Shown here one piece after another: positions 417 through 24,000 of a stretch of DNA of 64,000 nucleotides. The stretch lies in contig NC_079488.1 of the NCBI RefSeq assembly GCF_020520425.1, positions 89,757,285 to 89,821,284 of the forward strand. The letters run 5' to 3'. Origin of the DNA: Spinacia oleracea (Eukaryota; Streptophyta; Magnoliopsida; Caryophyllales; Amaranthaceae). The first letter of the stretch is position 1, and each line of letters opens with the position of its first letter. A program made the position numbers and the translations under genes. The notes under the pieces are model-generated. The model did no database searches and was not told the origin of the DNA. It worked only from the letters and a program-made list of their open reading frames with translations.

Positions 417-2141
417 ATAACTAGACCCAGACCCTTAAAAATGGGCCGGGTCCAACCGGGTCTGGACCGAGTCCTGGACCCATGCCCATCCCTACTCACA
501 ATGCTGCCTAGCGCCCAGTCCCAGTGCCCATGTCTATGCACCATGATGCATCCCGATGAATCAACGACCCACACGACCCGATTTCCGATGGAACACCACG
601 TTGTCCGGTGGTGCCCAACGAACTTGCCGCCTCCTTTGGCGGTGCACCGCGTTGCCTTGCGATGCTTGATGCCTTGCATGTTGCTGCATGCGATGGTGTG
701 GGAGGCCATCCGTGACAAGCAGCTATCTTTGGTTACCACTTACCAAGCTCCCTACTTTTTCTCTCACCTCATGACCCCCAACTACACAAAAATGGCGGAG
801 ATTTCATCTTACTCCTCTTCACTCTACTTCGATTCTCTCTCCTCCTAGCTTCCTCTCTCTCCGAAAACTCTCTTCGCCGTCACGACCGACCTCTATTTCT
901 CCGCTAACTTCACCCCGTATTCTCCGATTAGCCGCCGCAGAATCTCTTGCCAGACCTATTATCTGGCTCAATCTTCTGCATCTGTTAGTTATTCAGGTCA
1001 TTATCTTTACTTTTATCGCTTTTTGCAATGGTTAATTTCTCATTTGTTGGAAATGCAATTGAAAGTTTAATTTTTAGGTTCATATTTTTGTTGGGTTGAT
1101 TCACAATTTATTTTTGGCTAGTCTTATGCAATTCGAACTTTATTACTCGTTATGTTATTTATTATTGAAGATTTTATAATAAAAAAATATGATTTTTTAT
1201 GGGTTGTATTGAAAGTGTTGATTTCTGGGTTAAGTCGCTAAAATGCCATGAGAAATTGAGAAACAGGAGGTTGGTTTTGTTAGGTGGCATCATAAATACT
1301 GATTGATATTGCTAAACTGCATTGAGGAGCTGACTGAGCAACAAGTAAGGCAGCTTCACTTTGATCTAGAGTCTTTGTACAACTCCTTCATGGATGTTGC
1401 CTCATGCTGAAACTTGATTCGTTTGGGTGAGCTTGTAAATAATAATCATAAATCTATTTGTTTTTGCTCTTTGTATTAAGTAGGTAATTCATATGCATGT
1501 TGTGGCTACTTTGCACCAGACAGTGTTAATCTCATTTCATGCTTATGCATTCTGATCCCTTGAAGTTAGAAATTCTGATGAGGTGAATATGTTATTGGAA
1601 ATTGGAACGGCCTCCTGAACAAAGTATATATTTCCAGATACTTGCCTGTATCTATCAGCAAAATTAAACTAGCCATATAAACTTAGTGTATGACAAAATA
1701 GTAACTCTTCACTAGAAAGAACTGATATCAGCCATGAATTAGCTAAAGCTCAATAAGGATGGATCACATAATTACTTACAGTATTTGAAACATGATACAT
1801 TATATTTTCAATCAGATTCAATGTTGGACTACAGCTGAGTTAATATCTATCAGAGATTCAGGGTAATGATTTCCTTATGCTTATCAATCGCCCTGATCGA
1901 TTTAGGCAAAGGACCTCAAATAGGAAGTTGATGTTGAACCTCCAAAAGACATGTTGAGAAAACCTAAAGAGCATTAATATTATAATTTGGGAGCACGAAG
2001 ACCAAAGGTTTAATTATTTGATCGGTCTTTTGAACTATTGGGCATGGAGAAATCTTATTTTGGGATCAATTTTTTTGTATTCCCCTGCCTAATCTTTTGA
2101 TGGCTATATATATGCTCTAATTGTGTGTTTTTATTTTTGTA
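417..2141. other. Unassigned region, no supported gene
   Basis: At 425-490 there are several GGGTC/GACCC words typical of repetitive plant DNA. At 770-960 a CT-rich, CG-containing stretch resembles a plant 5' leader, with a short open start (ATGGCGGAG near 793) that stops after 18 codons. The rest is AT-rich with an exon-like stretch at 1318-1410. I see no protein family and no consistent splice chain, so I do not call a gene. Confidence 0.4.
1318..1410 (+). other. Exon-like open stretch, unidentified
   Basis: A 30-codon open stretch ending at a TGA reads like ordinary globular or coiled protein (contains ELTEQQVRQLHFDLESLYNS), unlike the AT-rich noise around it. A donor-like GTAAGG lies inside it at about 1345. 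I do not recognise the family. It could be a degenerate exon, a captured gene fragment or chance. Confidence 0.25.
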
Positions 2142-2213
2142 AGCCTATTAGCTCAACTGGCCGAGCACCATTAAACTTGCGCGGAGATGTAGGTTCAAAT
2201 CTTACATAAGCTA
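2142..2213 (+). repeat. tRNA-like sequence (decayed tRNA or SINE head)
   Basis: Box A (TAGCTCAACTGG) and box B (GGTTCAAATC) of a Pol III type-2 promoter are both present with normal spacing. The acceptor arm pairs at 6 of 7 positions (2142-2148 with 2206-2212), the D stem GCTC/GAGC pairs fully and the T stem pairs over 5 bp with one wobble. The anticodon arm does not fold properly and there is no T at position 33, so it is unlikely to be a working tRNA. A tRNA-derived SINE head or a decayed tRNA gene fits better. Confidence 0.55.
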
Positions 2214-2335
2214 TTGGTTTCATTATGAAAAATAAATCGGCATTTTGGGGTAACTTTTACCAATTTGGACTGACTTTATAAGTCATTTCTCTGTATATCA
2301 AACCAAAACGCAACCCAAAACTCCAAAAGTATGTA

Positions 2336-2410
2336 GGCTTATACGGGACTTGAACCCACACTATGTACATATATAAATGCACATTGCTCTACCATTTGAG
2401 CTAATAGCCT
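2336..2410 (-). repeat. Second tRNA-like sequence, inverted
   Basis: Read on the minus strand it has box A (TAGCTCAAATGGTAGAGC) and box B (GGGTTCAAGTCCC). The anticodon stem can pair over 5 bp but its loop is about 10 nt instead of 7. The acceptor arm pairs poorly. It faces the sequence at 2142-2213 about 120 bp away and shares its first 20 bases closely, so the two form an inverted pair. Confidence 0.55.
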
Positions 2411-3138
2411 TATTGTTCAAATATTTACATATTGGGTAAACTGGTATAAAACCTTTCTTAACTTTTATTACACAAGAACCAACTTTTATATTGATATTCT
2501 TAACTTTTACGAAGTATATATATTGATATTCCTAATTTTTTACTTCAGTGAAACTTCAGAAGTTAAAGTTAGTCTTTTGCGTAAAAAAGAGAGTAAAAAT
2601 TAGCCTTTTTATATTAGAAGTTAGCATTCATGCGGTAAAAGTTAGGTAAACTGATATGGGACCACCATATTTGACACGATGAAGCACATCCGACCTGATG
2701 TCTCCACCGTAAGTTTTGGACTGGCAGCAAGGTGACTCTTAATACTTTCTTGATTATTTTGGATCTCTTGTTCCTTTGCTTTTATACTCATGATTCATCA
2801 TCATCGTGATTCCATTTCTATGTTTTCAAACTGGTGCATATAATAAGAATTTTGAAAGAGGAGGTTGCATTTATTATCCTGTGATTCTAACATGATAACT
2901 AATCGAAGAACACAAAAAAGAAGGAAGTTGACCTTGATTATGGAGCGGAATCAATGAAGAACAATTGCAGAGAAAATAGCAGCCAAAAATCGCAGCAAAC
3001 GATTGAAGAAAGTAGCAGGCAAAATCGCTAGAGAGAAGGAGAGAAAGAGGACAGAGAAAGAGTACACAGATAATGACGAGAGAAGAGAGAAAAAATGTGA
3101 GTCCAGCCCAAAGTAAGGAAAGCTTGTTAGTTAGGCTT
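2411..3138. other. Unassigned intergenic region
   Basis: The sequence is AT-rich up to about 2900, then strongly purine-rich (AG-rich, 2900-3100) on the plus strand. No open reading frame of family interest and no clear mobile-element termini are visible. The purine block followed by a short palindrome suggests an old transposon relic, but I cannot name it. Confidence 0.35.
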
Positions 3139-3163
3139 GGTGTACAGTAAATTACTGTACACC
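3139..3163. repeat. Perfect 12-bp palindrome
   Basis: GGTGTACAGTAA and its exact reverse complement are separated by a single A. It lies about 600 bp upstream of the LBD start codon. It could be a transposon end pair, a cruciform or a dimeric protein-binding site. No other copy was seen. Confidence 0.8.
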
Positions 3164-3248
3164 CCTTACAGGCCCGACTATAGGGCAGTCCAACCGGACA
3201 TACAAGCCCCCAATCTTAATATAATCATAATAGTTATGAGTTTTACGT

Positions 3249-3453
3249 TTAATAATTTTATTTTTTCCCTATAAATCACGAGTATTTAAGACCTCATTTT
3301 TATACTAAAACCGGACCTCCAAATAGTCGAGACGGCCATGGCCCCTTGTTTTCCTTAATAATTTTATTTTTTCCCTATAAATCACGAGTATTTAAGACCT
3401 CATTTTTATACTAAAACCGGACCTCCAAATAGTCGAGACGGCCCTGGCCCCTT
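3249..3453. repeat. 106-bp tandem promoter duplication
   Basis: Two head-to-tail copies, 3249-3354 and 3355-3453 (second lacks the last 7 bases), differ by a single substitution (GGCCATGG against GGCCCTGG). Each copy carries a TATA-like CTATAAAT (TATAAAT at 3270-3276 and 3376-3382). A further TATAAA follows immediately at 3453-3458. The block sits about 300-500 bp upstream of the LBD coding start. Confidence 0.9.
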
Positions 3454-3458
3454 ATAAA
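3453..3458 (+). promoter_or_regulatory. Candidate TATA box of the LBD gene
   Basis: TATAAA lies about 300 bp upstream of the ATG at 3759. Initiation about 30 bp downstream would give a 5' leader of roughly 270 nt, which contains (CTTCCAA)n-like repeats near 3497-3530 and a CT-rich run at 3680-3715, typical of plant leaders. The TATA copies at 3270 and 3376 are alternatives. Confidence 0.45.
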
Positions 3459-3730
3459 CAAGATTTTGTGTCATCTAATCACTTTCACTCGACTCCTACA
3501 ACTTCCAACTTCCAACTTCCAACTTCCAACCTCTCTAATCCACTATTATTACGGAGTACTACTACACAAGTAGACATAAATATACATATATAGAGACCTA
3601 GAACTTTGCTAAAGAAAACTAAATTCCCCAACTTTAATTTCCTATAATTAAAGCAAACTAGTTTATTTCCCTCCATTTCAACCTTTTCTTCTTTCTTCTT
3701 TCTTCTTTCTTCATTTGCATTTGTTTTTTT

Positions 3731-3758
3731 GACCAAGACCAAGACCAAGACCAAGACC
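3731..3758 (+). repeat. (GACCAA)n hexanucleotide repeat at the LBD start codon
   Basis: About four and a half units of GACCAA run directly into the start codon at 3759. The reading frame is open through it but has only a TTG, not an ATG, upstream, so it is best treated as leader. Confidence 0.8.
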
Positions 3759-5913
3759 ATGACCACTGAATCTGTTTCTCTTTCGTCGCAACCGCCGACC
3801 GTGGTTGTGAGCCCTTGCGCTGCCTGTAAGATCCTACGGCGACGATGCGCTGACAAATGTGTATTGGCACCTTACTTTCCGCCTACTGAGCCACTCAAGT
3901 TCACTATTGCTCACCGGGTTTTTGGGGCTAGCAATATTATTAAATTCCTCCAGGTAATATATGCTCTTTACATCCTTTTCCATCTAAACCCCTTTCTACT
4001 ATCTGCTTCTATTTCCCTCTACTTCTGCATTTTATACCCACTAACACAGTTTTTTTGCTTAAATTACCTCATATATATTCACTTACATATACTAACCATT
4101 AACAAACAAAATATTCATTTCAAATTATTTAATGTGGCGTAAACAGTAAACTATAAGGTGATCAATCTTTTTATTGTTTTTTTATTGAATTGGTTCTATG
4201 ACATGGTATTGGAGCCAGCGTGACGCAAAGGTCACGGGTTCAAATCTCATCCACCCCTTCTTTGAAAGTGGAATATTTTAAGGGCTTTCAGGGCGTGATA
4301 GAGTATAAAACTAAATTTGGGCTTCAACCGCTCAGGGTTGAGTTGGTCCTCTTACACATCTATATACAACACTTTTTTTTGTTATTTGAATTGAAAATCA
4401 GCCATATCAGTTGAATTAACTCATGGTTGAGTTGATCCTCTGACACATCTATATACTAACACTTTTTTTTTGTTATTTGAATTGAAAATCAACCATATCA
4501 GTTAATAATTCAATATCCACTTAGAAATAAATTAACTAAACATTTTAAAAAATTAATAAAGTCGTGATTTGCACAAGAGCTAATTAATTACCCCGTATAT
4601 TTGTGTTTGACAATTTGGAGGGAATTGAGAGGGGTTGTGTGAATGCAGAAAGGAGCAAATAAAATAAAAGCATGCAATGGTCCTAAAGTGCAATACAACT
4701 AATCATTCTACCACCTCATACAATAAGGTTTTAGCTTGGTGATTAAGGTAATTGAGAGTTTATGTACAATTGATCTCAGTTCCAATCCTCCCATTTCAAT
4801 TTAGATTGCTCTTTGACTCATTTGCTAAAAAAATAACTAAGATAAAAGTGTTACCCCTAAAAAAAAAAGATAAAGGTGGTCACTTAAATTACTAAAATCC
4901 CCATAGTGATATAATGGTAGATAGACATAGTAGATGGCATAATACCTTAGGATGTTTAGATTGACAAACCACCTACCAAAGTTTCATATTTTTCTTCTTT
5001 TGTTACAAGTGTTAGTTACTAAGCGAAACATCTCAATGATTTCTTGTCTGTTAACTGCATCATTTTGCTTTAACAACCACTTAGCTTTTTTACCTTTAAC
5101 TTTTCTTATCCTTAGTCTTTTCTACACCAGTAAACATGGATGACCAAGGGTATATGTGTGGCGCAATTGGATCAAGGACCCTTGTGCAATACGTTTAGTT
5201 GTTTACGGTTTACCTGAAGAATGAAAGTCTATCCATTTAATTTAAAAAATACATGGCCTTGTTTTGGATAGGAGTTGTTAGTTGTTTATATTAGTTAGTT
5301 TGACTAGCTCGTTAAATTAGTCAAACCTCTAATTCACCTCAAAAAACTAGTTTTTGAATCTTAATTCTGTTGAACTTTGCATGGGTCAATGTTTGCTTTT
5401 TCCTATTAATCATCTAATGCTAGTACTAGCTTATTTCTGAAAATGATGTTAAACCTAAACATCCAAATCCATCATATTATTTTCACAGATTATATATATG
5501 TTTTGCCCTTTTACTAGGGAATCTAGTTTGACACTTTGACCATACGTAATTGCAATTGCATTAGTTGTGGTAGCAAAAGTAAGAGTATGATTGTATGAAA
5601 TAATAAATAAATTAATGTTTGGGTTTGAAACATTGGTTAATGAAATTGGAAAACGTACATACATCAGGAGCTCCCGGAATCGCAAAGGGCGGATGCAGTG
5701 AGCAGCATGGTGTACGAAGCGAATGCACGAATAAGAGATCCTGTTTATGGATGTGCAGGAAGTATTTGTCAGCTTCAAAAACAAGTGAATGACCTCCAAG
5801 CACAGTTAGCTAAGGCTCAAGCTGACCTTCTGAATATTAAGTGTCAGCAAACTAATCTCTTAGCTTTAATCTGTATGGAAATGGCTCACCAAAATGATGA
5901 ATATATAATGTAA
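3759..5913 (+). CDS. LBD1/LBD11-like: LBD (LOB-domain) transcription factor, LBD1/LBD11 type; 2 exons
   Basis: Exon 1 is 3759-3953 and exon 2 is 5668-5913, giving 146 residues. The intron starts GT at 3954, ends AG at 5667 and is phase 0, at the usual LBD position directly before ELPESQRADAV. Seen: the zinc-binding block CX2CX6CX3C (CAACKILRRRCADKC), the GAS block (FTIAHRVFGASNIIKFLQ), the DP-V-YGCAG segment and the class I leucine-zipper-like coiled coil (LQKQVNDLQAQLAKAQADL). LBD proteins are plant-specific nuclear DNA-binding regulators; the LBD1/LBD11 group is linked to cambium and secondary growth (family knowledge). I take ATG 3759 as start; in-frame codons upstream are only a GACCAA hexamer repeat. 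The protein is shorter than most relatives at both ends, with a brief C-terminal tail after CMEM. Confident in family, less in exact orthology. Confidence 0.93.
4193..4345 (+). repeat. tRNA-derived SINE-like insertion in LBD intron
   Basis: TGGTATTGGAGCCAG followed about 30 bp later by GGGTTCAAATCTC resembles box A and box B of a tRNA-derived short interspersed element. It lies wholly inside the LBD intron in the gene's orientation. Ends and target duplications are not clear. Confidence 0.45.
4331..4507. repeat. Approximately 89-bp tandem duplication in LBD intron
   Basis: Two direct copies, about 4331-4418 and 4420-4507, both run from CTCA(G/T)GGTTGAGTTG through an ACACATCTATATA segment and a T run to CCATATCAGTT. 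They differ at several bases. They follow the SINE-like sequence and may be its duplicated tail. Confidence 0.75.
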
Positions 5914-6737
5914 TGGCATCTCTATTATATACGTAGTACTCCGTAACTGAATAGGTGAGGTGAGGTTATTTTAGTGAATTCACTTTTAGTGTCCTCCTTA
6001 GATTACTAAAATATCCTCACACTTATAGAATAAATAATATAGTGACAACATACCCCCATATGAAAAGGTCAAACAAACATTTTAATCAATTTAGCCCCTT
6101 CTATAAATTCGTACCCTTTTAATCAATATGTTTATATGCGTTCGGCTCTATCTAACTTATATGTTTATAATATTCGCGCGCATCGTATTTATATTATATT
6201 TTTTATATGTTATTTCAGATTTAAATGTAATAACACAAACGATTTCTTATATTCGTACGCATCGCGTGCATATAAGACTAGTAATTATATAGCTCAAGAA
6301 TATATATATATATATATATACGTCTATTTATTAAGTACTCCGTAGTAAACTAATGAATTAAGCAAATTAGCTTTAATTTGGGTCACGTCATCTTTATATT
6401 TTGTATGAAAAAAATTAGGTGATATGATCATATAGACATGCATAATGTAATGGCATAATTATATAGCTCCAAGTAGAAATCAAAAGACATACTTTCTTTA
6501 TAAAATCATTCAATCTAAAGCTACTTTGCCTTTTTGGTTACCTAATATCACTAACTAATGGTGATAGATTGTCACTCTTATGAGTCGCAATCGATGACTA
6601 TCTTCTTTCAAAAATATATTCCCTTCGTCCCTTTTTATCTTTACGTTTGATATCATACATACATGCGATGTAATAATTATTTATTGTGGATAAAAATTCC
6701 TTTATTTTTCTTTCAAATATATACTTCATCGTCTCAA
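5914..6737. other. AT-rich 3' flank of LBD gene
   Basis: This is the 3' flank of the LBD gene, with no supported gene. It holds TACTCCGT words near 5938 and 6336, an AATAAA-like hexamer near 6030 that could serve polyadenylation and a (TA)n microsatellite at about 6300-6320. Confidence 0.5.
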
Positions 6738-7302
6738 TTTAATCCCCGTAAATTTATAAATTTTATTAATATATTTTAACGTATAGTTATTTATATTTTA
6801 AATAGAATTTACGAATTTTAGTAATAAATATATAATTAACGTTTATTTATTTTATTTAATTACATTTTAAGTATTTTAACGGTTTATGAAATCAAAAATA
6901 ATTTTAGAATTTTACATTGAAAAGAATTCGAATTACGAAAATACGTTCGATTGAATTTGGAAAAGCAATCATAACCGTTTCGAGTTCAAACAAACAATAT
7001 CCTAGTTCTAGCCCAAATTGTAAAGGCCCAAATAAATAAACTCATAATTTCACCCTTGTTACAATTTCACGTGAAATCCTCAAAACACCAAAACCTTCCC
7101 TCCTCCTTCACTTTCACGTAAAACAAGAACCCATACCCTACCTCCATTGCTGCGGCTGCCCAGCCGCCACCACCGCCGGCTCCTCTCTTCCGTCGTCCCT
7201 CTCTGCCTCCGTACCGCCGGTAACCTTCTCCTCCTCCTCTTGTTCTTCCTTTATCTTTTTGTTTTATCTCTCCCCTTCACTCTTGATTCTGTCTGTAGCG
7301 CA
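6738..7302 (+). repeat. Old Ty3-type LTR, left piece
   Basis: Reads as the reverse complement of the inner (element-sense 5') end of the Ty3-A and Ty3-B LTRs: a degenerate start (TTTAATCCCCGTAAATTTATA in place of TGTAATCCCCC...), AT-rich block, CACGTGAAA segment, then a GC-rich leader with CCGCCGGTAACC at 7214-7225. It is interrupted at 7302 by copia-1 and resumes at 36818. Heavily diverged, so it is the oldest layer of the nest. Confidence 0.75.
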
Positions 7303-8683
7303 TGTTAGGTTATGATACTTATGACAATTCATAAATCATGCGGAAAAACCATTTAGCCAGGAATACATATTATTTACACATAATCATATAGCATAGTTTA
7401 GATGCATACTCTTTGTTGCGTGCCTTCCCTAGCTGCGCCCGAACCGAACAAGAACAAGTCTTTAGGACTCCAAGTGTCGTCCCTCCGTAGATAGTCCACA
7501 GCACGTCCGGATCCGCCTTAAGATTGACCAACTAGAATCGCCCTTAAGGTACTAAAGATTTTCGGCACTTTTAGTCAAGGAATGTGTCTGAATTTTCTCT
7601 CAAAAACTCACTTTGAATACTTGAATAATCTCTCAAAATATGTGACCCTAGGCACCTATTTATAGAGTTATGGAAAGGGTTTTGGAATCCTATTAGGATA
7701 CTAATTTATTTAATTATAACCCTACTAGGACTCTAATTAAATAATCATTATCTAATAGTTTTAGGATTTAATCACACTTCGAATCCCGATTGCTTCAGGA
7801 TTCCCGCACAAGCATTGCACGAGCACCGTACACCCGCGCAAGCCTTGCGGCCCACGCTAGGCGCACAGCGCTCGGCCCATTGCTGTGCCCTTGCGCGCGC
7901 GCCCAAGGCCTTGGCTGGGCCTGGCCTTGCGCTGGGCCTGGTCGAGGCTTGGCGTGCGATGGTGCGCGTTGGCTCGCTGGGCGACGGTCTGGCTTCGTGC
8001 TGGGCCTTCGTCTAGCGGGCCTCGTCCGATGCTAATTCGTACGATACGCTTCCGATTAAATTCCCGATTCCGGAATTCATTTCCGATACGAACAATATTT
8101 AATATTTCCGATTCCGGAATTAATTTCCGTTTCGAACAAATATTTAATATTTCCGTTTCCGGAATTATTTTCCGATTCCGATAATATTTCCGATTCTGAC
8201 AATATTTCCGTTTCCGGCAATATTTCTGATTCTGGCAATATTTCCATTTCCGATAATATTTTCCGATACATACCATGTTTCCGTTTCCGGCAACATCTAC
8301 GACTTGGATAATATTTATATTTCCGATACGATCCATATTTCCGTTTCCGGCAATATCATCGTTTCCGGAGTATTCATTTCTTGCCTGTGACGATCTCAGC
8401 TCCCACTGAAACCAAGATCCGTCGATTCCGAATATCCATAGATGGAGTATCTAATGCCATTAAATACTTGATCCGTTTACGTACTATTTGTGTGACCCTA
8501 CGGGTTCAGTCAAGAGTAAGCTGTGGATTAATATCATTAATTCCACTTGAACTGAAGCGGCCTCTAGCTAGGCATTCAGCTCACTTGATCTCACTGAATT
8601 ATTAACTTGTTAATTAATACTGAACCACATTTATTAGACTTAACATAGAATGCATACTTGGACCAAGGGCATTATTTCCTTCA
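7303..8683 (-). repeat. Copia-1 left (3') LTR
   Basis: 1381 bp, starting TGTTAGGTTATGAT and ending ATTTCCTTCA. It contains a GC-rich block at about 7800-8030 and an imperfect array of TTCCG words at 8040-8372. The same parts appear in the other copies. Confidence 0.93.
8040..8372. repeat. TTCCG-rich degenerate tandem array within the copia LTR
   Basis: By hand count 21 TTCCG words occur in about 330 bp, mostly as units like AATATTTCCGTTTCCGGC. Three TTCCGGAA palindromes fall at about 8070, 8114 and 8159. It recurs in the LTR copies at 1-110, 36175-36510 and 38405-38735. The ORFs it creates are artefacts of the repeat. Confidence 0.85.
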
Positions 8684-11496: not shown

Positions 11497-11501
11497 AATA
11501 T

Positions 11502-12795
11502 TGTTGTTCCTAAGTTTTGGTTGATGACACACACATATTGCAAACTTCCTGATTATGGTTGCTAAATGACTTTAGACAGGTAAATGCCCAAGTTTCTATT
11601 AGGATAGGAACTTGAATCAGATGGTGAAGTTCCTGATGTACACTTGGAACAGTCACTGGAGTTCCAGAGCTGGAAGTTGTATCTATTCCAGTTTGAGGTC
11701 ACAAGAGGAGCAACACAGTTACATATCAAGAGTTCCGAATACTCACAAGAACTATTACAGACTCATGGCCACGAGTTCCTTTGAGAGACACAGAGGAACT
11801 CATCACTGTTCCTGAGCTGGAACGTCTGAAGCTTCTGAGTTGCAAGTTCCAGACAAAAGGAAGACATAAAAGTCTAGGTAGTCTACTGTACTTAGAATTT
11901 TATGTAAATATTAATTTTGCAAAAGATATATAGGGTACTCAAGGAACTTGTGATTTAATTAGGTCATTTATTTTACTGGAAGAAATTTTTATGAAAACAT
12001 GTAATTAAATAAAAATAAGTTTTTATTATAAAATAGATTTACGTTTTATGTTATTTTTTTATCAAAACTTATTTTCCTAAAAATTTGCCACAGTTTTTGT
12101 AAACAAATAAAATCTGTTGAAGAAAATCTTTTAAGGTTTGATTGAGTCAAACCACTAACTGCCTTGTTGCTGAAACGTGGGAAGTGGTCTTCCCCTTGTT
12201 CCTCAAGTCAAGGGACGTGAAGAACAAAGCACTGGCAGTTGGCAGTTGAGGCTTTGAAGGGAACTAACCCTAGGGATAAACCTATAAAAGGGCAAGTATG
12301 TTTTCTGGAAAATTACACAAACATTCTAAGAGTTCTTGCTTTCCTAAAAACGTATTGCCAAAGATTTTCTAAAAACAGTTTGTGTCCTAGTTATTTCAAA
12401 GTTCCTAAGTGCCCTATATCCACTCAAAAGCATCATTAATATCTAGAGTTACCCAAACACGAATTGTATTTGGTATTAGTAAGGATAGAGTTATCTTGTT
12501 GAGACTTAGAGTTTAAGTCTGAGAGAGAGAAGTGAAAGAGCTGTAATCAGAGTAGATTACTGTGAGGAACACAAGTTTGAGAGGAACTTGTGTTGGAGAG
12601 ATTATTGTAATCGAGGCATTACTATAATAAAAGAATTCTCTTCTTGATTAGTGTCAAGAAGTTTTCACAATTGTTGTTATTGTCTTCTCTATTCTCAGTT
12701 CCTTGATTGTTTCTTAAGTTCCGAAAGAACCTTTATCAAAGTTCTAATTACAATTCACCCCCCCCCCTCTTGTGCGTGTTCCTACTGGAATAACA
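11502..12795 (+). repeat. Sirevirus 5' LTR
   Basis: 1294 bp, TGTTGTTCC...GGAATAACA. It carries about 20 GGAAC/GTTCC words, a perfect 10-bp inverted repeat (12568-12594) and a poly-C run near its end. A TATAAAAG at about 12281 may be its core promoter. Confidence 0.95.
12568..12594. repeat. Perfect 10-bp inverted repeat in Sirevirus LTR
   Basis: AACACAAGTT and AACTTGTGTT flank a 7-base loop. An identical copy lies in the right LTR at 20845-20871. The loop-proximal arm contains the GGAAC word. Confidence 0.9.
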
Positions 12796-12797
12796 GT

Positions 12798-12810
12798 TGG
12801 TATCAGAGCC
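12798..12810 (+). promoter_or_regulatory. Sirevirus primer-binding site
   Basis: TGGTATCAGAGCC, two bases after the LTR end, is complementary to the 3' end of plant initiator methionine tRNA, the usual primer of copia reverse transcription. Confidence 0.93.
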
Positions 12811-12860
12811 AGTACTCACTAAAACACAGGAAACCCTGTTTGAGTCAAGTTCCTGAAAGT

Positions 12861-15800
12861 ATGAACTCACAAGAGAAACTGGAAGAAGGTTACTCGACAC
12901 AAAGGCCACCTATGTTCAATGGCAAGTTCTACTCATACTGGAAGAATAGAATGGAGATATTCATCAAAGCTGAAAATTACCAAGTTTGGCGTGTAATTGA
13001 AGTTGGAGACTTCGAGGTAACAAAGACCAATGCTGAAAACGAGGTAGTTCCTAAACCAATGTCTGAATTTTCTAAAGAAGACTTTGATAAATATGAGATG
13101 AATGCCATGGCTGTCAAAATCTTGCATTGTGGGCTTGGACCTCATGAACACAACAGAGTCATGGGGTGCAAGAACGCAAAACAGATTTGGGAACTACTTC
13201 AAGTAACCCACGAAGGAACTAATGAAGTTAAGCGTTCCAAAATTGACCTTTTGATGTCTAAATATGAAAGATTTGAAATGCTTCCAAAAGAAACTATTCA
13301 AGAAATGTTCACAAGATTTACTAACATAACCAATGAATTAGTTTCTCTTGGTAGAATCATTCCCACAGATGAACAGGTAAGAAAAATACTAAGAAGCATG
13401 CCACAAGATGATCGTTGGAGAACAAAGGTCACTGCACTGTTTGAGACCAAGGACTTCACCAAGTTCAACATTGAACAACTTGCTGGTTCCTTGATGACAC
13501 ACGAATTGCATCTTGGAGCTGCTGTTCCTGAGAGCTCAAGAAGTCGAGGACTTGCTCTAAAGGCTGAGGAACTCGATGAATCTGAACCAGATGAAGAAGA
13601 GGCTGCCATGCTGGTCAGAAGAATGAGAAAGCTCTATAGGAACTTCAAACCAGGAAACCAGAAAGGAAGGAACTTTGCCAAGAAAATCACTAGTTCCAAA
13701 ACTGAGCAAGGTTGCTTCAAATGTGGAGAAACTGATCATCAAATTCGTGAATGCCCTCTGTGGGAGAATGACAAGACCAGAGGAAAAGGGAAGGAACAGG
13801 TCAAAGATCGCTTTAACAAGTCTACCTTCAACAGACCAAACTTCAAGAAGGCCATGATAGCTGCATGGGGCGAAGCAACAGACTCAGAAGACGATGAGGA
13901 ACAACCAAATGAAGAAACTGCAAATCTCTGCCTTATGGCTAGAACAGAAGGAACTGATCAAGTTCCATCAGAAGAAATTCTAGTGAAGGGGAACAGCTCG
14001 TGGTATCTCGACAGCGGGTGTTCCAAACACATGACAGGAGACAAATCTAAATTCCTCTCACTAGAAGCCTACAATGGAGGAACTGTGACCTTTGGAGACA
14101 ACATGAAAGGAGAAATTGTTGGAATTGGAAAAGTTGGAAGGTCAAGTTCCTACGCCATTGAAAATGTATTTTTAGTCGAGGGTTTGATGCACAGTCTACT
14201 AAGCATCTCTCAATTCTGTGACAAAGGAAACTCTGTAAGTTTTACTTCTGAAAACTGTCAAATCATAAACAATAACACTGGGAAGGTTATTTTGGAAGGA
14301 ACTCGTAAAGGGAACACATATTCTGTGGATCTCAATACAGTTCCCAGGAACAATCTAACCTGCCTCAGTGCCCTTGAAGAAAATTCCCTACTATGGCACA
14401 GGAGGTTTGGACATGCTAGTTTCTCTCTGCTTGACAAACTAAGATCAAAGGAACTGGTTCGAGGACTCCCCTCAATCAAGTTCCTAACTGATAAAGTGTG
14501 TGATGCATGTGCAAAAGGCAAGCATGTCCGAAGTTCCTTTAAATCTAAGAAATTGGTAAGCACCACAAAACCATTGGAACTCATTCATATGGACTTATGT
14601 GGACCAATGAGAATTCAAAGCAGAAGTGGGAAAAAATATGTATTAGTTATTGTTGATGATTACTCTCGCTTTACTTGGGTCATATTTCTAACAAGCAAGG
14701 ATGAAACGTTTGATGAGTTTGTTACATTTTCAAAGAAAATCCAGAAAACCACAGGTCACCAACTGATCCATATAAGATCAGATCATGGAACAGAATTTGA
14801 AAATTACAAATTCGATGAATACTGCAAGGAACAAGGTATGGACCACAATTTCTCAGCTCCCAGAACTCCACAACAAAATGGAGTTGTTGAGAGGAAAAAT
14901 AGAACCTTAGAGGACATGGCAAGAACCATGCTAATAGCCAGTTCCCTGCCTAGGAACTTCTGGGCTGAAGCAGTCAATACTGCTTGTCACATTATAAATA
15001 GAGTTATGATTCGAGCAATCCTAAACAAAACCCCCTATGAGCTACTAAAAGGTATAAAACCCAACATCTCTTACTTTAGAGCCTTTGGTAGCAAATGTTT
15101 TGTCCACAACAATGGAAAAAGGAACTTGGGGAAGTTTGATGAAAGAAGCGATGAGGCAGTGTTCCTAGGATATGCCTTAAATAGCAAGGCTTATAGAGTT
15201 TATAACAAAAGATCTATGTGTGTTGAGGAAAGTGTACATATAATATTTGATGAATCTAACAAAACTGACATAGTACAGGAACAAGAATTTTTCGAGATTG
15301 GTTTATCTCGTGCTGCAGAAAATGATGAGGAATTCCAACCAAGCAAACACACAGCCAGAGGAACTGCTCAACAAAATCAAGAAGTTCCCGTACTAGAGGA
15401 ACAAGCAGAAAACCAAGAAGATCCAGAAACAACACCAGAGGAACCCCACAATGACCAACAGGGAACTCAGGTCATAGAAGGAACTGACGAAAATGCCACA
15501 ACACCAGTAGCTCAATTTCAACCTAAACCTTGGAAGCATCAAAAGTCCCACCCAATGGAACTCATTGTGAGTGACATCAGAAAAGGAACTCAGACAAGGT
15601 CACAACTAAGGAACTTTTGCGCATTCCACGCGTTCCTCTCCATATTTGAGCCAAGAAATCACTCTGAGGCTCTGGAAGACGCTGACTGGATCATTGCCAT
15701 GCAAGAAGAATTAAATGAATTCAAAAGAAACAAGGTATGGCACTTGGAACCCAAACCAAAGCACCAGAAGGTGATAGGGCTGAAATGGGTGTTCCGGAAC

Positions 15801-17174
15801 AAGAAAGATGAACATGCAACAATCATAAGGAACAAAGCAAGGTTAGTGGTCAAAGGTTATAACCAACAGGAAGGTATTGACTTTGAAGAAACGTTTGCAC
15901 CTGTTGCTAGATTAGAAGCCATTAGAATCTTAATTGCTTTTGCTGCTTTCATGGGTTTTAAACTTTATCAAATGGATGTTAAATGTGCTTTCTTAAACGG
16001 TTTCTTAGAGGAAGATGTTTATGTGGAACAGCCCCCTGGATTTGAAAATCCAGAATTTCCAAATCATATTTACAAATTAGATAAGGCTCTCTATGGACTA
16101 AAACAAGCCCCTAGATCTTGGTACGAGAGATTATCAAAGTTCCTCCTTCAAAATGATTTTAAAAGAGGTAGAATAGACAAAACCTTATTCTTAAAATCTA
16201 GAGGAACTGACTTGTTAGTAGTTCAAATTTATGTTGATGATATATTATTTGGAGCAACTAATGAAAATTTGTGCAAGGATTTTGCAAGCTTGATGAGCAG
16301 TGAATTTGAAATGAGTATGATGGGGGAACTCAATTTCTTCCTTGGTTTACAAATCAAGCAAACCGAGGAGGGAATCATGATACACCAACAAAAGTATGTG
16401 AAGGAACTCCTAAAGAAATATGAGCTAGAATCAGCCAAAGTAAATCACACTCCCATGGGAACTGCTACCAGATTAGACACTGATCCAAATGGGAAAAGTG
16501 TGAATCAAACGAAATACAGAGGTATGATTGGATCACTATTATATTTAACGGCCAGTAGACCTGACATTTCTTTTAGTGTAGGACTATGTGCAAGATTTCA
16601 ATCGAATCCAAAGGAGTCCCATCTAACTGCGGTGAAAAGAATACTAAGATATCTCAAAGGAACTGATGACCTATGCCTATACTATCCAAGAAGTGGATCT
16701 TTCGAGCTAAGAGGATATGCGGATGCTGATTATGCAGGTGACTTAGTGAATAGAAAAAGCACATCAGGTATGGTACAGTTCCTAGGTCCATGCATGGTTT
16801 CTTGGGGTTCTAAGAAACAGAACACTGTTGCTCTATCCACAGCTGAAGCTGAGTATGTAGCTGCTGCAGCTTGTTGCTCACAAATTCTATGGATAAAACA
16901 ACAGCTAAGAGATTTTGGTATTATCTATGATTGTGTTCCTATCTATTGTGATAACACTAGTGCTATTTGTATTTCAAAAGATCCAGTTCATCATTCCCGA
17001 GTCAAACACATCCACATTAGACACCATTTCCTTAAAGATAATGTTGAGAAAGGTTTGATCAAATTAGATTTTTGCCAAACTGATCACCAAATTGCTGATA
17101 TTTTAACTAAGCCTTTGAACAGAGAGAAACATGAGAAAATGAGAATGGAACTCGGAATGATCAAGCTAAGGTAA
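12861..17174 (+). CDS. Sirevirus Gag-Pol polyprotein
   Basis: 1437 residues from ATG 12861, the first methionine after the primer-binding site; the open frame extends back into the LTR but that part is not expected to be translated. Domains seen: Gag (residues 1-280), CCHC zinc knuckle [14 protein letters not shown] (about 284), aspartic protease [13 protein letters not shown] (about 382), the GAG-pre-integrase HRRFGH (about 512), integrase DDE residues near 577 (MDLCGPM), 639 (RSDHGTEF) and 675 (VVERKNRT), reverse transcriptase with YVDDI (about 1123), and RNase H starting near 1286 (ADADYAGD). All motifs are intact and there are no internal stops. The order PR-IN-RT-RH defines Ty1/copia. 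Likely functional. Confidence 0.96.
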
Positions 17175-17514
17175 TTGCCAAATTGAAATTCCTCTAAGGC
17201 AAAAGCAAAAATCATGGTACATATAGACTATTACAAACACAAAATCTTGTGTGCAAACATAGTTGAAGCTTACCATCGTGGCAAATTCACTCACACTCCA
17301 AATGAGCAAGGTAAGCAGTTCCTTTCAAACTAGTTAAGTCAGAGATACGAAATCAAGCAAGTCAAAGTCAAACACAATTTTTTTTACATTTTCCTTTTAT
17401 TTTATCTATTTATTTTTTTTAAAATTCAAAACCGAATACCCATATTCAAAGAATGTTTGGAACGGTTCCATTGGCAATAAATAGGAGAAACTCTTCCCTT
17501 TCCACATTCAATCC
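17175..17514 (+). other. Spacer between Sirevirus pol and ORF2
   Basis: 340 bp with no ORF. It is AT-rich with T runs around 17375-17420. It may carry a splice acceptor or leader for ORF2, but I cannot pick one. Confidence 0.5.
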
Positions 17515-19272
17515 ATGCAACCCCCTTTCTCTCTCTCCCACACGCCTTCTCCACTGACATCACCTCTCCTTTCACCTATAAAAACCTCCACCATGGTTCT
17601 CACAAGCAACAACGCTGATCTCACATCCCTCAAACGAAAGAGAAACCCTTCATCTCCAGTTCCCATGGATACCTCACCCATTCAATCGCCAATTCCTCTT
17701 CGATCCCACAATCCAATGCTCGCAATCACTCAGGGGGAACAAACCGACACTGACATCGAAATGAAATCCCCAATCTCAAACCCTAGATCCTCCACAAGAA
17801 AATCCAAAAAACGACGAGTGGAAGCTTCTGGTGAAAACATCGAGGAAACAGAGGAGAATGCACAAACTCAGGGGGAAGCAAAAGGGTCCAAGAAACTCAC
17901 TGCAAAGGAAAACAACCTGGTCGAGGGGTTCGCAATCAACTCAACATGGTGTGAAGCCACGAAATTTAAAGAGTTGATGGAAATCCTTGAACAACAAAAA
18001 TGGGTAAGTCTGTTGAGTACCTATGCCAAATCCCCCTTAATTCCTGAAGCTATGAAAGAATTCTGCAAGAACTTTGCATGTGTTGATAATGTATGTTCAA
18101 GTAAAGTGAATGGAACTCGCATCGAATTTGATGCCTCTTATCTGGAACAGATGTTTGGTACACCCAATAGGGGTTTTGATATGTGGCTCAAAGGTCAAAT
18201 CACAGTGACCATAGATAATGTAGATGAGAAAGATATAGTTGGTTCCATTGGAGGAGATTCTAAAGTATCCACCTCCACCTCACACAACTGCTTTTCACCT
18301 CTTCAAAAATTACTGTTTAATATTGTGTGGAGAGGTGTAGTTCCTCGAACTCAGAAAAGGAACATAGCAAGTCTGTTTGATGCATGTCTCATGTATTGTC
18401 TTGAAAGGAAAATTCCCATAAACTTTCCTGCAATCATGATCAAACACTTATCCACCTGTATCCCCAAATTCAAAATTCCATACTCCTCCCTTCTTACAGA
18501 AATCTTCAAAAGCTTCTCAGTTGACCTTAGCCCATACTTTGTGATTCCCTTAAAATCCACCCAAATCCTTCAACTTGAAATGCTCCATCTATTAAATCTT
18601 AAAGTGGTTCAGGGTAAAGTCATTAGGGCTGGAAAGGAAGAGAAACAAGATGAGGAAGATCAGGAAGGAACTGTAGTTAAAGAAGAAGTGGAGGAGGAGG
18701 AGGAACTCGAACAAATAGAGGTCCCTTTATCTCGAGGGAACAGGAAGAGTGTAGGAAAAAGAAAGAGCTTGAGGGTGGCAATGAAGGAGAACAAGAAAAG
18801 AGGGCCTGTCTTCATGGAAATAAATGAGGAAGGGGATGTCAAGGAGATGCCCATAGAGGAGGATGCTGTTCCACTGAATCAAGAGGAACTGCCTGAAACT
18901 GTTGGGCCAAGAAAAAGGACACCCAGATCCTCCAAAAAGTCCAAAGCTCGTCGTGTTCCATCTGAGCAGGAACATGTTCAAGATCATGGGGGTGCCTGGA
19001 ACACAAAGGATGATCAGATATTGGAGCTGAAGGCAACAGTTGCTCGTCTGGTGGAACTACAGGAGGGAACAGATCACAGAATCAGCTCAATGCAGGCCCA
19101 CATAGGTGCATTGGTTACAAGTGTCAAGACTCTCCAAAACAATCTTCACCACTACTCAGAACAAGCCAATACTACTCGTGCCACAATCCTCACCAAGATC
19201 AACAATCTGGAATCTTTTGAGGAGACTGTGATAGAAGAAACTGCTGGTTCTGGTTCCCCATCCCAAGCCTAA
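17515..19272 (+). CDS. Sirevirus ORF2 (envelope-position protein)
   Basis: 585 residues from ATG 17515; ATG 17593 (context ACCATGG) is an alternative start that would remove a proline/serine-rich leader. Seen: a basic, low-complexity N-terminus with LKRKR and RKSKKRR nuclear-import-like clusters, a folded middle (about residues 140-365) resembling the family called putative plant transposon protein domains, an acidic and basic stretch (375-490), then a coiled coil (about 500-575). I see no signal peptide and no convincing membrane segment, so an envelope role is not supported by sequence. The gene follows pol by 340 bp, as in other Sireviruses. Function unknown; nuclear targeting is inferred. 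Confidence 0.85.
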   Translation: MQPPFSLSHTPSPLTSPLLSPIKTSTMVLTSNNADLTSLKRKRNPSSPVPMDTSPIQSPIPLRSHNPMLAITQGEQTDTDIEMKSPISNPRSSTRKSKKRRVEASGENIEETEENAQTQGEAKGSKKLTAKENNLVEGFAINSTWCEATKFKELMEILEQQKWVSLLSTYAKSPLIPEAMKEFCKNFACVDNVCSSKVNGTRIEFDASYLEQMFGTPNRGFDMWLKGQITVTIDNVDEKDIVGSIGGDSKVSTSTSHNCFSPLQKLLFNIVWRGVVPRTQKRNIASLFDACLMYCLERKIPINFPAIMIKHLSTCIPKFKIPYSSLLTEIFKSFSVDLSPYFVIPLKSTQILQLEMLHLLNLKVVQGKVIRAGKEEKQDEEDQEGTVVKEEVEEEEELEQIEVPLSRGNRKSVGKRKSLRVAMKENKKRGPVFMEINEEGDVKEMPIEEDAVPLNQEELPETVGPRKRTPRSSKKSKARRVPSEQEHVQDHGGAWNTKDDQILELKATVARLVELQEGTDHRISSMQAHIGALVTSVKTLQNNLHHYSEQANTTRATILTKINNLESFEETVIEETAGSGSPSQA

Positions 19273-19766
19273 ATCACCCTATCCCATGTTTCTTTTATCT
19301 TTTGCCATGGAACAATCTTTTTAATTTGCTTTTGGTCTGTATAATTTTCAAACTTGGGTATTTGTTCCATCTTATTTTGACTTGCTTGGTTACACATATC
19401 TGTGCTTTCTAGTTTTGATCATTACTGCTTGCTTTCAATTTATTGTATGAGTTGGCTTAATACTTTGAGGCTAGCTTAACTTGCCAAACGTTGATCGTGG
19501 GGCACTGTGTTTGGAATGGCTATATTTCGTGCTATGCTTTTTGTTGATGTCAACAGGGGGAAGTCAAGGGTGCAAACTTCCAAGGCACACTCAATCCCAG
19601 TTCCTGCATCAATCTCTCTGAATCTCTCTGTAAGTTTATTTTTCTTTCTTTCTTTCTTCTCTTTAATCTTTTTTTTCAATTTTTATGTTCTGTTTCACAA
19701 TAGTCTGTATAAGTTCCTGTTTGTACCTACTCTCTTTGTAAAAAGTTTGCAAGTGTTGTCATCACC
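19273..19766 (+). other. Sirevirus 3' untranslated region
   Basis: Noncoding, with T-rich and CTTT runs around 19630-19680. A small ORF from 19507 runs into the LTR and is not supported. Confidence 0.5.
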
Positions 19767-19781
19767 AAAAAGGGGGAATAT
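19767..19781 (+). promoter_or_regulatory. Sirevirus polypurine tract
   Basis: AAAAAGGGGGAATAT directly precedes the right LTR and would prime plus-strand synthesis. Confidence 0.88.
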
Positions 19782-21073
19782 TGTTGTTCCTAAGTTTTGG
19801 TTGATGACACACACATATTGCAAACTTCCTGATTATGGTTGCTAAATGACTTTAGACAGGTAAATGCCCAAGTTTCTATTAGGATAGGAACTTGAATCAG
19901 ATGGTGAAGTTCCTGATGTACACTTGGAACAGTCACTGGAGTTCCAGAGCTGGAAGTTGTATCTATTCCAGTTTGAGGTCACAAGAGGAGCAACACAGTT
20001 ACATATCAAGAGTTCCGAATACTCACAAGAACTATTACAGACTCATGGCCACGAGTTCCTTTGAGAGACACAGAGGAACTCATCACTGTTCCTGAGCTGG
20101 AACGTCTGAAGCTTCTGAGTTGCAAGTTCCAGACAAAAGGAAGACATAAAAGTCTAGGTAGTCTACTGTACTTAGAATTTTATGTAAATATTAATTTTGC
20201 AAAAGATATATAGGGTACTCAAGGAACTTGTGATTTAATTAGGTCATTTATTTTACTGGAAGAAATTTTTATGAAAACATGTAATTAAATAAAAATAAGT
20301 TTTTATTATAAAATAGATTTACGTTTTATGTTATTTTATCAAAACTTATTTTCCTAAAAATTTGCCACAGTTTTTGTAAACAAATAAAATCTGTTGAAGA
20401 AAATCTTTTAAGGTTTGATTGAGTCAAACCACTAACTGCCTTGTTGCTGAAACGTGGGAAGTGGTCTTCCCCTTGTTCCTCAAGTCAAGGGACGTGAAGA
20501 ACAAAGCACTGGCAGTTGGCAGTTGAGGCTTTGAAGGGAACTAACCCTAGGGATAAACCTATAAAAGGGCAAGTATGTTTTCTGGAAAATTACACAAACA
20601 TTCTAAGAGTTCTTGCTTTCCTAAAAACGTATTGCCAAAGATTTTCTAAAAACAGTTTGTGTCCTAGTTATTTCAAAGTTCCTAAGTGCCCTATATCCAC
20701 TCAAAAGCATCATTAATATCTAGAGTTACCCAAACACGAATTGTATTTGGTATTAGTAAGGATAGAGTTATCTTGTTGAGACTTAGAGTTTAAGTCTGAG
20801 AGAGAGAAGTGAAAGAGCTGTAATCAGAGTAGATTACTGTGAGGAACACAAGTTTGAGAGGAACTTGTGTTGGAGAGATTATTGTAATCGAGGCATTACT
20901 ATAATAAAAGAATTCTCTTCTTGATTAGTGTCAAGAAGTTTTCACAATTGTTGTTATTGTCTTCTCTATTCTCAGTTCCTTGATTGTTTCTTAAGTTCCG
21001 AAAGAAACTTTATCAAAGTTCTAATTACAATTCACCCCCCCCCCCTCTTGTGCGTGTTCCTACTGGAATAACA
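19782..21073 (+). repeat. Sirevirus 3' LTR
   Basis: 1292 bp. Differences from the left LTR by eye: a T run shorter by 3, a C run longer by 1 and one C-to-A change near 21007. Confidence 0.95.
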
Positions 21074-24000
21074 AATATTCTGTTCTCCTTGAAGCACTTG
21101 TAAAGTCTTCTAAGAGATGTCTATTCTTTAAAGACACTTCTAAAGTCCTTAAAGAATAAGTTCGGATTTTCTGAAGCACTTCGAAAAGCCTCCGGAATGT
21201 CCGTTTATGTTTGTTGTTCACCTCGAAGACTTTCGAGGTCTATTTTCTCCCACTTGTCATTTTGGAAACGAATCTCCAAAAGGACATTATTTCGAGCAAA
21301 CAAACATTATGTTCTCAAAAATTCGTGGTAGAAACAATACCCTTGTGTCTCATTTGAATAAATCACAATGAAACATATATCTAGACTTGGGCCTTAGTTT
21401 GTTGAATAACAAACACTAAGCTCCCACTGAGTTTAACAACTCTTTAGATATATATAATTGAAAAGATATCCTGAAATTACTTTTCAATAGCTTTGACGAA
21501 TTTGGTTTAGTTTGGTGGTAGTTGAGCATTTTGTTTTAGAAATTATAGGAAAAGTCTTTATGATTCATCATTGATCGAATCAAGTACTAATTGACTTCGA
21601 TTATTCCAACTAAGATATGCCATATCTTATGGGCCTAGATTGTGAAATTACAACACACAATCATTGATGATCATATTTGGTCTCAAGTAATCATCAACAT
21701 GATCTAACCTAGATCTTTATGATTTCTTGCCAAGTGGATTTTATACTTCTGAATCTTTGAACTAGCCAAACAGATTCAACTTATATCACATTTGAGTAAA
21801 TAAACCTATATTCACTCAAATCCATGTGAAATAATAAAGTCATAAAATCTTTCTTTAGCTTTGAACTCTATTGTCTAGGCGTTCTAACAATAGTTCATAT
21901 CTTTGTTACTTTCAACAAGTAAGACTAGCTTGTCTTAAGTTGATCTAGAAATCAACCAACTTTCAAAAGTCCATTAAAATAGAGCTTGTGAATGTTAACT
22001 TGTTGACATGGTCTAAGCAACAATGCCAAAGATTAGTGGAACTCAAATCAAGGGGTTGATTTGAACCTAGTAAAGTTCTTTAAAGAGTTGTTTGTTTTAA
22101 TCAAGCATATTGACTCAACCTGTAATTGACCATTTCATTCAAATAAACAAACAAACATTGTTTTTGTTTTTCTTGAATGTGAGTCTTTCTGTGTTTGAAA
22201 ACAGAAATTTAGGTATGTTGATTATGGAACAAAATAGCCATTAAGTTCCAGCCTTTGAAAGGACTTAAAACAAACTAGATGACCCTACAACTAATGTAGC
22301 ATTGCCATGCTTCATTTCCCACTTGTAGGTCATTAGTGTATCCTAGCTTCCATTGTTTGAGTTATTACCGAAGTAAGAACCTCAAGCGGTATATGATACC
22401 AAGGAAGTTTGATTGCTAGGTCACTTCTCTTTAAACATAAACTTATAGGTAGAAACGGAATCGTAAATTCCTTTCATTTGTTCCTTTGTTTTCCTATTTC
22501 TTGTACCCTTTCTTATAGTCTTAAGAATTGAATTCTTTAGTGTTGACTTTTATACTTTGTTAGACATGTCCAATGTCACCCCAACAAGGTTCTTACCATT
22601 TAATTTATGTTGAATATTAAGTTTCAACTAGATGATCTTACCAGAAGCTTCTAAAGTTCTCTAAGCATCGATCTATTCGAATGTCTAGGGACTAGACTCA
22701 TTCGAGAATTAAATGGACAAAGATATTAGTTTGTTAACCATTAGTAAAGCTGAGCGTATTAAACTCAATGCTTTATGATCTCAAAACTACAGTGTATTTT
22801 GAATTCACAAGCACCAATTGGTTTGCCATTCGACTTTGATGTTCGAAAACAACCATAAAAGTCGCTATAAGAAACGTACATTTTAAATTGCTCACTTTCT
22901 CTCTTTTCCGTGAATCGTTCTTGGATTCACTACCAATCGAGGAAATTTACTGTTACCTTTCTAAAAGGGTTTATTGCAGTGCAAGATATTTAATTATAAA
23001 CAATAATTAAAACATACATTGAAGCATGCAAAGTCTAAACATTTATCATGAATAATAACTTGAAAATTAAAGCAATCATGCAATTTAAACAAGTCATTAG
23101 CATTTTATTCGAATAATTGTTCTGGCAGGTGTGAATAAAATGATTCCAAGACCCTAAAACCATTGAAGAATTAAGCACAGTTTGTCGACTCAATTCTAAA
23201 ACATTTTAGGTAAGCAAAAGCCTTTTGCTAATAGTCTAGAAACTACTCTTGGTTGATAGGTACGTCTAAGAACTTATTAGGTAAACCTATCGATTTTGCC
23301 ACGACATAAAAGGACTCCTTACTTATATCGTTGAGTTTCACCAAAACTAACGTGTACTCACAATTATTTGTGTACCTTGCCCCTTTAGGACCAATAAGTA
23401 ACACCTCGCTGAGCGAAAACTATTACTAGATTGATGTAAAGGATATCCAAGCAAGTGTATATTTTGGCATGGCACCTTATAACTCATTTTTTTTTTAAGT
23501 TTGGAACTTAAGGCTCTTACTATGTTGGTTAGATTTTAAGTGAACTAAAATCCTTAATCATGCAACATAATCAAGCCACAATCTTATGCATAATTAAGAC
23601 ATATTTAAAGCAATAAATAACTTAAAGCATGCATAAGATAAATGTGATCTAGTATGGCCCGACTTCATCTTGAAGCTTTGACTTCAAAGTCCGTCTTGAA
23701 AATCTCCGTGGGAGGCACCATTTTCTTCAAATAGGATAAGCTATAATTAAAACTAATTACAACTATTTGATGGTACGCAGACCATATTTGAATTGAAAAA
23801 CGACTTTGGTACTTTAGACCAATTACATTCAAATTAATGGTACGCAGACCATATTTTCTATCCTATTTGGGCCATACTAGTCACTTCATAACCTGCAAAA
23901 CAGTACATATACAATATATACCATTCACCCATTCATTATCATGAATGGCCCACATAGCTGGTTAGTAAAACACATTATGCATCACGTAAACATTTGCAGC

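Follow-up and report, generated by a model that had tools for sequence, protein, structure and literature searches.

Why should one five-base word recur, on both strands and through coding and non-coding DNA alike, along the whole body of a retrotransposon? The question is raised by the element at positions 11502–21073 of the 64,000-nucleotide stretch of the spinach (Spinacia oleracea) genome analyzed here, which we call the window. This element is a recently inserted long terminal repeat (LTR) retrotransposon and carries 123 exact copies of GGAAC/GTTCC (68 GGAAC and 55 GTTCC). Counting a single LTR together with the internal region (8,280 bp), we found 103 words compared to a mean of 15.7 in 100 dinucleotide shuffles (standard deviation 3.5, maximum 26), making GGAAC/GTTCC by far the first of the 512 five-mers, and the commonest seven-mer, AGGAACT/AGTTCCT, occurred 39 times against 2.1 expected. 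Hand counts made in an earlier, sequence-only reading of the locus (about 20 words per LTR, 58 in gag-pol, 24 in 17175–19781 and 120 in total) were close to the exact values of 20, 57, 25 (3 + 18 + 4) and 123, and both the shuffle comparison that it proposed and the seven-base context that it named as commonest held up. The parts of the element, with their share of the words, are as follows:

11502–12795, + strand: 5' LTR with TG...CA ends; 20 words (8 GGAAC, 12 GTTCC).
12796–12860, + strand: leader, containing TGGTATCAGAGCC; 1 word.
12861–17174, + strand: gag-pol frame with gag, zinc knuckle, Pol_BBD, integrase and reverse transcriptase (RT); 57 words (38 GGAAC, 19 GTTCC).
17175–17514, + strand: spacer; 3 words.
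17515–19272, + strand: open reading frame (ORF) 2, 585 amino acids, with PF20167 (Transposase_32) at 162–337; 18 words; candidate reader of the word.
19273–19781, + strand: linker with the polypurine tract AAAAAGGGGGAA at 19767; 4 words.
19782–21073, + strand: 3' LTR, 99.6% identical to the 5' LTR; 20 words at matching positions.
11502–19781, no strand assigned: GGAAC/GTTCC word array; 103 copies, with a preference for A-GGAAC-T; the words are spaced 80 bp apart on average, with gaps of up to 376 bp.

Word density was 15.5 per kb in the LTRs, 13.2 in gag-pol, 10.2 in ORF2 and 8–9 in the spacers, or 12.9 per kb in the whole element, and these counts confirm that the word occupies LTRs, both ORFs and spacers in both orientations. 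An AATAT direct repeat lies on either side of the element (11497–11501 and 21074–21078), and the motif noted in the leader resembles a primer-binding site for initiator tRNA-Met.

Genome-wide composition is ruled out as the cause of the excess by counts in the window and in random stretches. Outside the element, the window holds 62 words in 54.4 kb (1.14 per kb), and five random 10-kb stretches of the spinach genome carry 0.6–1.7 words per kb; a sixth (L028) reached 6.3 per kb because a family copy lies within it. For the element z is 21, compared to a peak of 12.5, reached with other words, among the 27 other overlapping 8.28-kb segments of the same sequence. The other high-scoring words, CGGAA, CCACC and CGCGC, form mostly local clusters. 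Clusters at 8050–8426, 36179–36555 and 38409–38785 are related to each other, rich in TTCCG/CGGAA and minisatellite-like. Elsewhere in the window, identical GGAAC contexts recur at 27172/33930, 40134/47437 and 31009/44296, which suggests duplication of blocks inside it in the 27–49 kb region.

Other copia sequences gave a mixed picture. The fragment at 50018–51574 shows no excess (1 word compared to 2.1 expected), and the one at 62863–63996 (31% identical to the gag-pol of the element), which is cut by the end of the window, has a mild excess of 7 compared to 1.9; its continuation (L039), a fragment only, holds 13 words in 4.5 kb, and its top words are CG-rich. A scan of genome contigs yielded, from a bacterial assembly (Labilibacter sediminis), two copia fragments that look like plant sequence and are probably contamination; neither has a GGAAC excess (9 compared to 8.7 in L036 and 6 compared to 7.5 in L037). 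The excess is lacking from the five random stretches and from these two outside copia elements. One of the two, L036, has a different frequent word, CAGAA/CAGAAG, on both strands (79 compared to 30.0 and 32 compared to 5.5 in bases 1–6800; bases 6801–7382 were left out of one count), and L037 has TACGCA (13 compared to 1.2). Words of this kind may exist in other elements too. Viral contigs were also scanned for relatives of the element, and none was found.

Within gag-pol, codon use and amino-acid composition are ruled out as the cause by synonymous-codon and codon-order shuffles and by the use of all three reading frames. With 200 synonymous-codon shuffles per test, the open frame at 12651–17174, which begins within the 5' LTR, contains 38 GGAAC compared to 11.8 (maximum 18) and 23 GTTCC compared to 5.0 (maximum 12), and ORF2 contains 12 GGAAC compared to 3.9 (maximum 8). 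The earlier claim that codon use is no explanation is therefore upheld for both words in gag-pol and for GGAAC in ORF2, but not for GTTCC in ORF2, where the count lies within the shuffles. Words are found on both strands and in all three frames, except for ORF2 GTTCC (two frames). The use of both strands, and of LTR, coding and spacer DNA, likewise agrees with the earlier view that a one-strand RNA signal does not explain the word. These sequence comparisons support GGAAC/GTTCC as a word at the level of DNA.

The arrangement of the sites resembles random placement, with a coefficient of variation in spacing of 0.91 (random 95% range 0.83–1.16). No helical phase was seen when spacing was inspected at 10–11 bp, and the 15 one-mismatch words, taken as a group, were not enriched (210 compared to 234 expected). 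On these grounds the sites are probably not copies of a longer unit, and each probably arose separately. Tandem expansion was rejected as the origin of the word: the element contains neither tandem arrays nor copied context. Around the word, the preceding base is preferred in the order A > T > G >> C and the following base in the order T > A >> C and G, with little signal further out.

The family to which the element belongs is abundant in the spinach genome (894 Mb), with 1,334 first-look candidates for an LTR piece and 1,335 for ORF2, of which 40 and 75, respectively, were scored. The Sirevirus (Ty1/copia) label, taken over from the sequence-only reading, is likely. The Pfam order of gag-pol (gag_2, CCHC, Pol_BBD, gag_pre-integrs, rve, SH3 and RVT_2) is copia-type, with integrase ahead of RT as in Sireviruses, and the extra ORF between pol and the 3' LTR is a feature of their envelope-like subgroup. 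Two other listed Sirevirus features are missing. Instead of multiple identical polypurine tracts upstream of the 3' LTR, a simple pattern scan of this one copy found a single full tract, at 19767, and a short AAGGG at 19566, and in place of CGG-CCG motif boxes the 1,294-bp LTR has 2 CGG/CCG. The pol tree took in plant and environmental proteins that carry no Sirevirus label, and was built without SIRE1, Opie or PREM-2. A passage in PMC7840529 puts SIRE elements at <1% of Spinacia genomes.

Copies of the family differ in two respects. About 728 bp within gag-pol are absent from the window copy at ~13976 (element base 2475/2476) and present in all 15 compared loci (L009–L022 and L028); the version of this segment in L012 carries 9 words. 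The same 1,508-residue open frame is listed for other genome copies, which may share the loss. There are also two LTR types (L009–L016 compared to L017–L022), 85% identical to each other, and the internal regions that they flank are for the most part 99% identical, which points to an exchange of LTRs inside the family, through recombination or template switching.

Because close copies are 99% identical and therefore little informative, retention of the word was examined on the 85% identical LTRs and on other families. The close-copy comparison omitted copies matching <90% of a piece (L011 and L020 for gag5, L010 and L019 for pol, and L017 for the linker). All word-bearing relatives come from the spinach genome, and L029–L035 are stretches with flanks or partial elements, so that their counts are not per element. 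In six type-B LTRs (L017–L022, ~85% identical to the window LTR), 18–19 of the 20 sites are kept compared to 57–59% of other five-mers and 58% (21 of 36) of five-mers with the same composition. One of the two sites missing from L018 is due to the late start of the fetched stretch, and probably likewise in L022. Reckoned from the type-B side, between 18 of 20 and 19 of 21 sites are common to both. The LTR of L028 (91% identical) keeps 17 of 20 compared to 64%. Retention was also higher for the word than for other five-mers in L032 (pol 91% identical; 74 of 81 sites compared to 59%) and L031 (pol 83% identical; 45 of 64 compared to 33%), and in a more distant clade with pol 71–74% identical (L029, L030, L033 and L034; 14–15 of 49–50 sites compared to 19–20%).

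Retention was also scored at silent positions, using the third bases inside words in those gag-pol codons that specify an identical amino acid in the two sequences. These were kept at 88 of 90 positions in L032 compared to 74.5 expected (binomial p = 8e-6), at 76 of 82 in L031 compared to 49.0 (p = 2e-11), at 43 of 59 in L029 compared to 27.5 (p = 4e-5) and, more weakly, at 31 of 56 in L030 compared to 23.3 (p = 0.026). The word is retained at the DNA level inside coding sequence, and it looks to be under selection, a process that these comparisons do not formally separate from directed mutation; silent-site retention together with the family-specific drift described below favors selection.

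Across seven further spinach loci of the clade, GGAAC ranks first among five-mers in six (L029, L030, L031, L032, L033 and L035) and third in L034, and its preferred context changes from family to family. The ratio of GGAACT to GGAACA is 59/34 in the window, 58/28 in L032 and 45/40 in L031, compared to 15/55 in L035, 9/31 in L029, 8/38 in L030, 6/28 in L033 and 9/28 in L034. The flank preference differs from that of the window in L030 (Fisher p = 2.6e-7) and L035 (1e-7) and does not in L031 (p = 0.17) or L032 (p = 0.64). In L029, L030, L033 and L034, GGAACT is near chance (6–9 compared to 5.6–6.7 expected) and GGAACA holds nearly the whole excess.

Two loci have in addition a sister word, GGATC (AGGATC), with 46 copies compared to 17.8 in L031 and 40 compared to 15.6 in L035, against 11 compared to 14.2 in the window. 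Both orientations are used (22/24 in L031 and 22/18 in L035), and its flank follows the family: L031 has 23 GGATCT and 11 GGATCA, whereas L035 has 23 GGATCA and 9 GGATCT, the same direction as its main word. At homologous places, with sites at alignment gaps skipped, GGATC is the commonest replacement of a window GGAAC both in L031 (8 cases, next commonest 2) and in L035 (5 cases, next 2); in L029 it occurs twice, tied with others, and it is not among the replacements listed for L030, L033 and L034. The pattern reads like a recognition site whose putative reader changed, with the sites following.

If such a reader exists, the ORF2 protein is the leading candidate, with gag and integrase as other possibilities. 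Its sole Pfam match at E ≤ 0.1 is PF20167, and it has the basic clusters that the sequence-only reading had pointed out, together with a long predicted helix (498–578) which we, too, read as a coiled coil. Searches for ORF2 homologues returned one protein and, in another search, two. Among the 75 best matches listed in the genome, 68 are stop-free, the window's own included. The protein diverges fast, with 31–49% identity to the window ORF2 among six loci, which keep the PF20167 core and basic stretches such as RKSLR, RKSMR and RRSSR; the C-terminal parts of ORF2 from L029, L030 and L033 align to the long predicted helix.

The word may also have had a price. Residues under words show lower conservation than the remaining ones in comparisons with L029, L030, L033 and L034 (0.65–0.66 compared to 0.75–0.76, p = 0.03–0.05 each), which are close kin and not independent, and with sugar beet protein P0004 (0.66 compared to 0.76, p = 0.07). 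In a protein-only comparison with outside relatives, 120 proteins were compared and conservation was tested on 24 rows besides the window: under-word residues are less conserved in 18, about equal in P0023 and more conserved in L031, L032, P0005, P0007 and P0033, none of the latter significantly. The alignments hint that gaining words came at the expense of the element's proteins.

The explanation that we propose is that GGAAC is a recognition word in double-stranded DNA, accumulated and selected, whose reader would most likely be encoded by the element itself, with ORF2 as the leading candidate; we put its chance of being right at about even. The word, at its best AGGAACT, would have accumulated by point substitution over the full element and then been held by selection. 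With its PF20167 core, basic stretches and a long helix able to multimerise, the ORF2 protein could tell its own DNA from host DNA by the density of short sites over 9.6 kb. The most likely benefit would be to keep the chromatin of the copies open, in the manner of the VANC anti-silencing proteins, and a second could be to coat or protect the element's own complementary DNA (cDNA). We hold more tentatively, at somewhat less than an even chance, a broader view. Under it, a clade of LTR retrotransposons would label all of its DNA, coding sequence too, with a word for self-recognition, and its own ORF2 (PF20167) protein would read that word. Word and reader would co-evolve (AGGAACT, AGGAACA and AGGATC[A/T]), and the result, an analogue of VANC in retrotransposons, would have arisen through point substitutions, at some expense to the proteins of the element.

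Several observations weigh against these proposals. ORF2 itself has a lower word density (10 per kb), and its GTTCC count (6 compared to 3.3, maximum 7) does not exceed synonymous-codon shuffles. Its structure model is poor (mean predicted local distance difference test score 38) and confident for the long helix alone, and a profile comparison with solved structures gave two weak matches only (E 0.04, CASP8-associated protein 2) and no DNA-binding fold. No ORF2 match was found in the fetched stretch of L032, which stops before the 3' LTR. Around a different PF20167 gene of spinach (L038, 6 kb), GGAAC is not in excess and no word stands out strongly, so the presence of PF20167 is not enough to predict the word. 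Enrichment is moderate in L029, L030, L033 and L034 (40–51 compared to 17–19 expected in 9.9 kb), and L035 keeps just 12 of 29 window sites compared to 28% of other five-mers. Finally, the protein-cost signal is statistically weak, with p < 0.05, uncorrected, in five of the 24 rows (L034 at 0.05).

Enrichment and retention require merely some reader, and this could be a host DNA-binding protein (a transcription factor, or an architectural or chromatin factor) that aids the element, which would have gathered the host's site. The LTR sites by themselves could then serve as enhancers. A transcription factor would not need the 57 sites in gag-pol, however, and one host factor common to all families would not yield GGAACT or GGAACA according to family and GGATC in two loci; differing preferences among families of one genome fit a protein carried by each family. 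We consider a host reader unlikely, though it is the strongest of the alternatives.

A self-encoded reader might instead do another job, coating the element's cDNA or marking it against self-integration or degradation, as in BAF and target immunity, or the reader might be integrase or gag. The word spans the whole cDNA, including its coding part, without phase and on both strands, which suits coating over promoter control. We regard this variant as decidedly unlikely.

Less probable again, and in our view quite improbable, is an action in RNA, in which complementary GGAAC and GUUCC would be many stickers of 5–7 bp that fold or dimerise the genomic RNA for packaging or condensation. Both orientations do occur, and folding of 20 400-nt pieces predicted 20 word–word helices, with word bases paired at 0.71 compared to 0.57 on average and five of the 20 pieces at z below −2. 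Across all 20, however, folding energy was only slightly under that of shuffles (mean z = −0.70), the two orientations are frequently unequal in number locally (4:0 and 7:2), and paired RNA would permit compensatory words, yet a single word is fixed at ~100 sites. Least probable, and very improbable, is a biased mutational process that recreates the word with no reader (RT error context, templated repair or gene conversion): a steady bias toward the word would mimic retention, but one-mismatch words are unshifted as a group, neither tandem nor copied context is present, and silent-site retention and family-specific flanks suggest position-aware maintenance.

Among known systems, bacterial DNA uptake sequences are also short words that lie in coding and non-coding DNA on both strands and mark a cell's own DNA, but they belong to bacterial genomes, serve uptake, are much less dense and are unrelated by descent. 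VANDALs are Mutator-like DNA transposons. As described by Hosaka et al. (2017; PMC5735166) and Sasaki et al. (2023; PMC10398659), in the parts available, a short word gathers in one VANDAL family, varies among subfamilies and is rarely dense elsewhere, and a self-encoded VANC protein reads the motif by its density; in the spinach element a self-encoded reader is proposed only. The VANC21 motif has nine bases, is mainly non-coding, is arrayed in one orientation and spreads through tandem repeat formation (PMC5735166, in the portion available), whereas the spinach word has five bases, belongs to an LTR retrotransposon and is dispersed in both orientations, within coding sequence and without tandem arrays. 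The analogy with VANC drawn in the sequence-only reading thus carries over for accumulation in one family and for flank and sister-word variants, but not for the DNA-transposon setting or the tandem, same-orientation, non-coding arrangement. A 2026 meeting report, in the part available, refers to unpublished studies of VANC and target structures.

High-copy short motifs of proposed regulatory function are also described in Sirevirus genomes: Bousios et al. (2010; PMC2829016), in the accessible part, report motifs with a CGG-CCG core, found in the LTRs of 13 elements and also located ahead of the envelope-like gene, while GGAAC, GTTCC and GAACT are absent from its main text. In another species, sunflower, SIRE-lineage elements show a dramatic drop in CG methylation over their central part while CHG methylation stays high; the available text (PMC12844716) ties no word or protein to the drop, which by analogy would fit partial anti-silencing. 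The accessible portions of open-licence literature on Sirevirus motifs, VANC, anti-silencing, beet and spinach Sireviruses and GGAAC contained no report of this word.

If the proposed reading is true, plant LTR retrotransposons can mark and read their own DNA, and sequence-specific self-recognition would not be confined to VANDAL DNA transposons. The unexplained ORF downstream of pol, the third gene of such elements, would gain a testable role, and the spinach families would offer a ready evolutionary series for the co-evolution of word and reader within one genome. It would also explain why some of the protein sequence of such an element may bend to a need at the level of DNA.

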